Source of the DNA: Phycisphaeraceae bacterium
GTDB lineage: Bacteria > Planctomycetota > Phycisphaerae > Phycisphaerales > SM1A02
Direction: 5' to 3'
NCBI GenBank assembly: GCA_015709595.1
Contig: CP054178.1
Coordinates: 558,001 to 622,000, forward strand
Length of the DNA stretch: 64,000 bases
How positions within the stretch are numbered: the stretch's first letter is position 1; every line of letters starts with the position of its first letter. The notes beneath the pieces were generated by a model. The model was not told the DNA's origin. It made no database searches and saw only the letters and a program-made list of their open reading frames with translations. This document shows positions 40,781 through 42,063 of the stretch, in pieces. Both the position numbers and the translations under genes were made by a program.

Positions 40781-40849
40781 TACAATCCCTCGGGCTTGAG
40801 TCTGGTGGGCCGTGCGCGGTCGCGCACGGAAACGGACAGGAGGTCCGCG
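40781..40849 (+). promoter_or_regulatory. csrA leader: -10 box and two hairpins, one with the Shine-Dalgarno in its loop
   Basis: TACAAT (40781-40786) is a good -10 box without a clear -35. In the roughly 57-base leader, CCGTGCGC / GCGCACGG (40810-40829) forms an 8-bp stem with loop GGTC. Directly before the ATG, CGGAC-AGGAG-GTCCG (40833-40847) forms a perfect 5-bp stem whose five-base loop is the Shine-Dalgarno. GGA in a hairpin loop over a ribosome site is the form of known CsrA repression sites, so autoregulation is inferred. Confidence 0.6.
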
Positions 40850-41083
40850 ATGCTGGTGGTGTCACGCAAAGAAGGGGAAGAGGTCGTGATCGGCGATCCG
40901 AGCAATCCGCTCGGCATCGTGCGCGTGGCGTCGGTGAAAGGCGAACGGGTGCGCCTGGCGTTCAGTTTTCCAAGGCACGTTCAGGTCTTTCGACGTGAAC
41001 TGGCCGACGAAATCCTGAGCGGCACGCATGTGAACCCGGTTGTCGGCACGATCAAGCCGAACACGAGCGCTGGTGCTGGTTGA
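40850..41083 (+). CDS. csrA: Translational regulator CsrA
   Basis: CsrA/RsmA dimers bind GGA motifs in mRNA leaders and change translation or stability. The 77-residue protein begins MLVVSRKEGEEVVIGDPSNP and contains GIVRVASVKGERVRLAFSFP, then the C-terminal helix VQVFRRELADEILSG. RNA-contacting residues at the ends of the protein are conserved: Leu2, Val4 and Ser5 with Arg6 at the first strand and the late RRE of strand 5/helix 1. The final 20 residues (THVNPVVGTIKPNTSAGAG) are an extension beyond the typical 60-residue core. The start is fixed by AGGAGG five to six bases upstream, inside a hairpin. No fliW lies in the window. Confidence 0.95.
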   Translation: MLVVSRKEGEEVVIGDPSNPLGIVRVASVKGERVRLAFSFPRHVQVFRRELADEILSGTHVNPVVGTIKPNTSAGAG

Positions 41084-41148: not shown

Positions 41149-41185
41149 AAAAAGCCCGCGCCGCCTGGTGGCGGGCGACGCGGGC
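41149..41185 (-). terminator. Rho-independent terminator of the minus-strand transcript
   Basis: On the minus strand GCCCGCG pairs with CGCGGGC, with an inner CGCC/GGCG stem, followed by TTTTT. It would end a transcript coming from the mraZ side. csrA on the other strand stops 66 bases away. Confidence 0.75.
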
Positions 41186-41486
41186 GATGCGGGAAGTGGT
41201 CGAAAGGCCTTCGGCTCGCGGCAACGAGCCGAAGGACAGCTTGGAGTCCGTGGAGCGGGGCCCCGATCCACGTTTCCTGGAGGTGTGGGCCATCCCTGCC
41301 CGCCTCCACCCCGCGAACTACCGGGTCATCCCTGACCCACGAATGCCCGGTCGCTGAGCGTCTTCCGGCGTTGCGCGCTCCGGCTGGCTGCCCGCCCGTC
41401 CCTGGGCGATCTTCGTCCGTGATGGGCCATCCACCCTTCCCTGAGCGGCGCCCGGCAACCAACGCTCACCGACCGACCCAAAGGCA
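41154..41486 (-). ncRNA. Candidate CsrA-binding small RNA or long mraZ 3' UTR
   Basis: No gene is seen in this stretch. Read on the minus strand, it contains CAGGGA four times (41438-41443, 41399-41404, 41329-41334, 41293-41298) and CAGGAA once (41274-41279) within 170 nt. Several sit in predicted loops: CGCCC-AGGGAC-GGGCG, GGGTCA-GGGA-TGACCC and GGGC-AGGGATG-GCCC. Two of them extend to CAGGGATG, which matches the CsrA consensus CARGGAUG. An 11-bp stem-loop (41208-41235) and a terminator close the 3' end. The 5' end is not known: there is no convincing promoter, and the transcript could be the 3' part of mraZ mRNA. The overall layout resembles CsrB/RsmY decoys, but no Rfam comparison was possible. 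Confidence 0.4.
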
Positions 41487-41503
41487 GGTGATCCGAGCCC
41501 GGA

Positions 41504-41992
41504 TCACGTGCCGTCTTTCCCTCCTCCGTTCATGTGCCGCCGCTCCCGCATCGCCATGCGGGCGCGGAGCATGACTTCCGCCTGTCTGGCGCGGCGCTCC
41601 GCCCGGTCGCGCTGCCACGACTCGGGGTCGCGCAGCTCCAGGTGATCGCGCATCCCGATGATCATCACGCTCGAACCCAGCCCCGCGTCCGCCAGCAACT
41701 CCTCCGGCACGCGCACGCGACCCGCGCTGTCGATCTCGACCAGGCGCGCCAGGGGAAACGTGGCTTCCGCGAAGGCCAACTCGTCCTCGCCGGGCACCAG
41801 CGACTGCTCCAGATCCGCCGCCATCGTCTCGAAGGTCTTCTCCGGCCAGAGCCAGAGCGAGCCGTTCGGACCGGGCACCACGTAGAACGTGGGCGGGAGT
41901 TTCTCGCGCTCCAGACGCGAACGCACCTCGGCGGGAATCGCCAGACGCTGCTTCGAGTCGATGGTGTGGAGGAACTCGCCGGTGAAGAGCAC
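41504..41992 (-). CDS. mraZ: Transcriptional regulator MraZ
   Basis: MraZ is a DNA-binding protein with two SpoVT-AbrB domains that represses the dcw cluster. Both domains are visible: GEFLHTIDSKQRLAIPAEVR followed by SRLE, and ARLVEIDSAGRVRVPEELLA then LGSSVMIIGMRDHLELRDPE. The tail RERRHMNGGGKDGT is charged. GTG 41992 is proposed because MraZ proteins begin a few residues before the GE motif. A GTG at 42022 would add ten residues but lies on the operator. The usual partners (rsmH, ftsL, ftsI and the mur genes) are absent here, so mraZ is an orphan. Confidence 0.92.
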   Translation of the reverse strand: MLFTGEFLHTIDSKQRLAIPAEVRSRLEREKLPPTFYVVPGPNGSLWLWPEKTFETMAADLEQSLVPGEDELAFAEATFPLARLVEIDSAGRVRVPEELLADAGLGSSVMIIGMRDHLELRDPESWQRDRAERRARQAEVMLRARMAMRERRHMNGGGKDGT

Positions 41993-42018
41993 GCATGGAC
42001 GCCCCAAGAGGTGACGAG

Positions 42019-42063
42019 CCACACTTTACCCCACTATGCCCCACAATGCAACACCATCGCCCA
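42019..42063 (-). promoter_or_regulatory. Phased MraZ operator, five boxes
   Basis: Reading the minus strand toward mraZ, TGGGC, TGTTG, TGGGG, TGGGG and TGTGG begin every 10 bases (42063, 42053, 42043, 42033, 42023). Known MraZ operators consist of three or four TGGGN-type direct repeats at the same spacing in the mraZ leader. Three boxes match well and two (TGTTG, TGTGG) partly. Autorepression is inferred. Confidence 0.7.

Follow-up and report, generated by a model that had tools for sequence, protein, structure and literature searches.

A minus-strand RNA lying 3′ of mraZ in a Phycisphaerales genome is likely to be a sponge that sequesters CsrA. This reading is carried by the anatomy of the RNA, its conservation among relatives, the strand specificity and covariation of its hairpins, their loop consensus, the intact RNA-binding residues of the neighbouring CsrA paralogue and the MraZ-box-like repeats at the mraZ promoter, each of which is shown here; binding by CsrA, transcription of the RNA and its function are inferred. 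CsrA decoy RNAs have been described as identified in Gammaproteobacteria only, with two unvalidated predictions elsewhere (PMC4333381), and Planctomycetes have been placed among the likely users of FliW (PMC4682653). In the open-access literature searched (CsrA with Planctomycetes, Phycisphaer- and mraZ + sRNA), no title or abstract reports the element; subscription papers and preprints were outside the scope of this search.

Anatomy of the candidate mraZ-linked RNA

The window analysed here is a 64-kb stretch (positions 558001-622000) of a single-contig, 3.84-Mb genome. Within it, mraZ (minus strand) and a csrA paralogue, which we denote csrA2 (plus strand), converge on a 420-bp gap, and mraZ is detached from rsmH, which lies roughly 536 kb away. 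The features of the locus, in window coordinates, are as follows.

40833-40847, plus strand: hairpin CGGAC.AGGAG.GTCCG containing the csrA2 Shine-Dalgarno sequence (hairpin scan)
40850-41083, plus strand: csrA2, the mraZ-linked CsrA paralogue (Pfam CsrA, 4.7e-13; R6 and R44 kept)
41149-41185, minus strand: intrinsic terminator, a 12-bp stem (11 GC) at 41185-41154 followed by TTTTT (pattern)
41154-41486, minus strand: candidate CsrA-sponge RNA region 3′ of mraZ, 5′ end undefined (motifs, hairpins, conserved place in relatives)
41267-41281, minus strand: possible site 5, TCCAGGAAACGTGGA, weak (motif, fold)
41287-41301, minus strand: hairpin 4, GGGC.AGGGATG.GCCC, seven-base loop (local fold)
41322-41339, minus strand: hairpin 3, TGGGTC.AGGGAT.GACCCG, strict ANGGAN hexaloop (hairpin scan, local fold)
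41392-41409, minus strand: hairpin 2, TCGCCC.AGGGAC.GGGCGG, strict ANGGAN hexaloop (hairpin scan, local fold)
41431-41448, minus strand: hairpin 1, CCGCTC.AGGGAA.GGGTGG, 6 bp including two G-U pairs (local fold)
41483-41512, minus strand: GC-rich inverted repeat or hairpin over the mraZ stop codon, then TTT (sequence and fold)
41504-42022, minus strand: mraZ, longest open reading frame (Pfam MraZ, 1.6e-21)
near 41992, minus strand: probable GTG start of mraZ (VLFTGEF...), inferred from relatives
42027-42044, minus strand: MraZ-box-like direct repeats GTGGGGCATAGTGGGGTA upstream of mraZ (sole genome match to the pattern)

The original prediction of five CAGGGA or CAGGAA motifs on one strand within 170 nt held: the minus strand carries CAGGGA at 41443, 41404, 41334 and 41298 and CAGGAA at 41279 (first base, plus-strand coordinates), spanning 170 nt end to end, and neither motif occurs on the plus strand of 41154-41486. 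Dinucleotide shuffles of the mraZ-csrA gap yield 0.31 CARGGA and 0.53 AGGGA on average, against four of each observed. Strict ANGGAN hexaloops on 6-bp stems occur twice in the gap, where shuffles expect 0.02, and just three times in the whole 64-kb window with both strands summed. Hairpin 3 is the closest of the window sites to the CsrA consensus. The further claim that several motifs lie in hairpin loops held locally for sites 1-4, with site 5 weak; when the partition function is computed over the full length, other base pairs partially occlude sites 1, 2 and 5. The predicted strong 3′ terminator held as the 12-bp stem and TTTTT, a pattern of which chance alone would supply about one in a region of that size. 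The hairpin over the mraZ stop codon could mark the boundary between mraZ and the RNA, a processing site or the end of mraZ translation.

No frame on the RNA strand is open throughout the first 330 nt after mraZ in the window, the longest running to 97 codons; an open frame of at least 105 codons is present in 27/71 loci, which at such GC is uninformative about coding. Insertions and deletions in the alignments of relatives, together with the constraint on loops and stems, may favour an RNA over a coding sequence. A scan limited to the sigma-70 consensus found no separate promoter for the RNA.

Conservation on one strand after mraZ

A DNA similarity search with the region gave almost no matches in 60 relatives. 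The sequence drifts while the hairpins stay, and we therefore compared relatives through mraZ; an initial mraZ alignment of wider scope proved too diverse for searching named genomes. In 70 of the 78 named Phycisphaerae loci, mraZ is followed at a distance of 309-787 nt by a csrA homologue, convergent with mraZ in 49 and on the same strand in 21. Counting as strict those hairpins whose ANGGAN hexaloop is closed by a stem of 4 bp or longer, we found 176 in these 70 loci on the mraZ strand and 0 on the reverse strand, with at least one in all 70 loci, at least two in 57 and at least three in 40. A set of 47 mraZ loci of relatives, which shares some genomes with the 70, gave 95 strict hairpins on the mraZ strand and 0 on the other, 1.5 being expected from shuffles; when all 64 A-N-xyz-N loops were compared in these 47 loci, GGA was found 95 times and the runner-up 6 times. 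The strict hairpins are concentrated in the first 300 nt past the mraZ stop codon and are nearly absent from the remainder of the loci.

Distribution varies within and beyond the order. Few strict hairpins are present in one family (f4), and in another (f5), in which csrA2 was not found and the canonical csrA was the only one detected, some hairpins are kept. Five f5 loci (L114-L118) carry hairpins with ACGGAG, AAGGAT or similar hexaloops at the beginning of the mraZ match or close to it, an arrangement that could, as an inference from sequence alone, point to control of mraZ translation by CsrA. Among the other orders of the class, a strict hairpin follows mraZ in 11 of 28 sampled loci, with two or more in four; in two loci (L294 and L307) the hairpins lie between mraZ and the apparent start of rsmH, a layout that may be ancestral and predate the departure of mraZ from the division cluster. 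Of 36 loci outside the class, 2 have a strict hairpin after mraZ; one of them (L269, genome G163) has three, which might reflect either a wider distribution or chance in a single genome. Genome G021 was considered as a case of the RNA without mraZ and rejected, a divergent mraZ being present.

The element thus tracks mraZ and not csrA, being kept where csrA is inverted, with similar hairpins in other orders where csrA is absent. This refines the original prediction, which had placed the RNA beside csrA and had listed an mraZ 3′ UTR as a competing identity: because its place after mraZ does not depend on the orientation or presence of csrA, the 3′ UTR is no rival to the decoy and is probably how the decoy is made.

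Covariation and loop consensus

In two alignable groups of loci, four ANGGA loops are invariant and the stems have changed on both sides, with compensatory changes at 9 of 31 stem pairs in one group and 9 of 24 in the other. Roughly 97% of alignment cells are paired, no shifted register comes close, and the covariation score was reached by 0 of 500 shuffles. Both alignments are small, with 8 and 6 sequences, and they also served as the source of the structure. When 71 loci are pooled, 174 of 181 loops begin with A, the second position is unconstrained, the sixth is usually T or C, and 161 of 174 closing pairs are C-G. This consensus agrees with the published RsmE/CsrA recognition site, an ANGGAN hexaloop (PMC7652899). 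Alignment A3, from one group, also contains two strongly conserved blocks at columns 200-230 and 343-395 (GCGA.CAGGGGGGCA... and ATGAGCGGGGGCTCGATGGCTGCTTCGCTTCGCCGCC); neither is an ANGGA hairpin, and both remain unexplained.

CsrA paralogues and the predicted partner

CsrA2 forms a distinct paralogue that carries a short insertion. Its RNA-contact residues are intact, R6 and R44 being invariant in 71/71 sequences, and residue 4 is I or V instead of L. The csrA2 Shine-Dalgarno sequence lies in a GGAG-loop hairpin (stem of at least 4 bp) in 50/71 loci versus about 25% for shuffled flanks, and the window copy at 40833-40847 is likely, judging from sequence only, to be an autoregulatory CsrA site.

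A second, canonical csrA (CsrA1) adjoins fliW and flagellin in the same genome. At this locus (L131, C1:2239000-2243500), the flagellin Shine-Dalgarno sequence lies in the loop of CAGTC.AAGGAG.GATTG (locus position 2623), probably a classic CsrA target in the same genome, as inferred without binding data, and the interval from fliW to csrA contains a 9-bp AAGGAC hairpin. FliW and the decoy RNA, whose function is inferred, therefore probably coexist in one genome, and the suggestion that FliW is the alternative antagonist failed here, because the genome has both.

Four genomes (G001, G005, G016 and G026) have no FliW match and a single csrA match, the mraZ-linked gene, and keep the hairpins, which indicates CsrA2 as the partner. 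The partner may also be CsrA1 or both, because family f5 keeps some hairpins without a detected csrA2. We consider the neighbouring CsrA2 the likely target of the decoy, a point that is not settled and for which there are no binding data.

MraZ-box-like repeats at the mraZ promoter

Two TGGG repeats in a 10-nt register lie upstream of mraZ in 58 of 77 loci; the reverse strand has none, and such repeats occur in 61 of 1560 random windows. Their sequence approximates AAAGTGGGGNAAAGTGGG and is similar to the direct repeats AAAGTG[T/G] reported for the MraZ site in Mollicutes (PMC8475190). In the window genome the pattern GTGGGGNNNNGTGGGKTA is found once, just upstream of mraZ; it was written with that site in view, so the result is its uniqueness, not its presence. 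No MraZ box was found upstream of rsmH in this genome.

In the mechanism that we propose, the RNA would form the 3′ portion of the mraZ transcript, started at the mraZ promoter; alternatively, a promoter not yet identified, close to the 3′ end of mraZ, would drive it. In either case transcription would stop at the terminator at 41154. The ANGGA hairpins would then bind CsrA dimers, most likely of the neighbouring CsrA2, and the bound CsrA would be kept off mRNA leaders, including that of csrA2 itself. The simplest model, a single MraZ-controlled transcript comprising mraZ and the sponge, is possible; transcription, CsrA binding, titration and control by MraZ are all inferred.

Comparison with known systems

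Searches with Rfam covariance models, including CsrB, CsrC, RsmX/Y/Z, TwoAYGGAY (RF01731) and Bacillaceae-1 (RF01690), gave no match, and permissive thresholds gave only sub-threshold matches at chance level; no convincing GacA/UvrY box lies upstream, the best site having 4/12 mismatches, the same as shuffled sequence. The mraZ-linked RNA shares with CsrB/CsrC and RsmX/RsmY/RsmZ repeated GGA in hairpin loops, the ANGGAN consensus, an intrinsic terminator and a genome encoding a CsrA with RNA-binding residues. In contrast to those RNAs, it follows mraZ, usually beside csrA, occurs in FliW-bearing genomes and has no proven promoter of its own. It probably works like CsrB/RsmY without being a member of those Rfam families, its function being inferred.

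TwoAYGGAY and Bacillaceae-1, proposed CsrA sponges, have similar AYGGAY-type loop hairpins (PMC4333381); they occur in other phyla, with only two sites reported, and are not known to be linked to mraZ or csrA. Small RNAs derived from 3′ UTRs directly follow a coding gene and end at a terminator, as does the mraZ-linked RNA, and those known mostly pair with mRNAs; the mraZ-linked RNA instead carries hairpins of a protein-binding type, binding being inferred. The FliW-CsrA-flagellin switch, with fliW, canonical csrA and flagellin side by side in the same genome, relies on a protein antagonist, FliW, whereas at the mraZ locus a predicted RNA accompanies another csrA paralogue.

Alternative explanations

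The alternative that survives best is that CsrA acts only in cis, on the mraZ 3′ UTR, governing the stability or processing of mraZ mRNA without titration. It is supported by the invariable position of the element after mraZ, including loci with an inverted csrA or none, and by the ANGGAG hairpins that f5 carries at the beginning of mraZ or close to it. Against it, each RNA carries several sites, none overlapping a start codon, and csrA adjoins the element in most of the order, both of which fit titration better. We regard the cis-only reading as unlikely; the two readings are not mutually exclusive.

It is very unlikely that another protein, or base pairing such as Shine-Dalgarno mimicry, accounts for the hairpins, their likeness to CsrA sites being convergent. 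AAGGA does look like a Shine-Dalgarno sequence and binding data are absent; however, mimicry is disfavoured because the second loop position varies freely, the sixth is T or C and not the G of AAGGAG, the loop, closing pair and stem are all of the CsrA-site type, and csrA is adjacent. The chance occurrence of GGA motifs, in a terminator region that is rich in GC and flanked by convergent genes, has in its favour that about one terminator-like site would arise by chance in a region of such size; it is all but excluded by the strand asymmetry (176 versus 0), the shuffles and the covariation.

Candidates elsewhere in the genome were rejected: close CANGGAYG pairs gave 29 matches, several within 21-bp tandem repeats, and the sole non-mraZ locus among those fetched with two close strict hairpins, at 1415383, lies inside open reading frames. 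The 21-bp unit CACGGATGGTCGCGGCTCGCT forms dispersed tandem arrays at C1:75294, 751884-752038 and 2893185, which contain CANGGAYG and no ANGGAN hairpin.

Discussion

Conservation of the element in relatives having csrA, covariation of the stems around fixed GGA loops and the absence of an Rfam match to any other RNA family are all favourable to the original reading of the region as a CsrA decoy, which the comparative data support; CsrA binding and a separate transcript are still inference. Several observations count against a sponge: the window RNA has strict hexaloops at only 2 of its 5 sites, many relatives have one to three strict hexaloops and do not reach the number of GGA sites known for CsrB, the full-length fold leaves some sites of the window RNA partly paired, and strict hairpins are few in f4.

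A bolder reading, which we could as readily see fail as hold, is that a CsrA sponge within the mraZ transcript ties the activity of CsrA2 to MraZ in Planctomycetota, with MraZ controlling its own promoter, maybe its sole site in the genome, beside an independent FliW-CsrA1-flagellin circuit. Whether FliW and an sRNA act jointly in any species was undetermined in a 2020 review (PMC7652899), and genomes with FliW, the RNA element and two CsrA paralogues make such co-action directly testable. If true, decoy antagonism of CsrA in Phycisphaerales would extend beyond the Gammaproteobacteria, where it is established, and the link to MraZ would suggest a new role for a widespread regulator.
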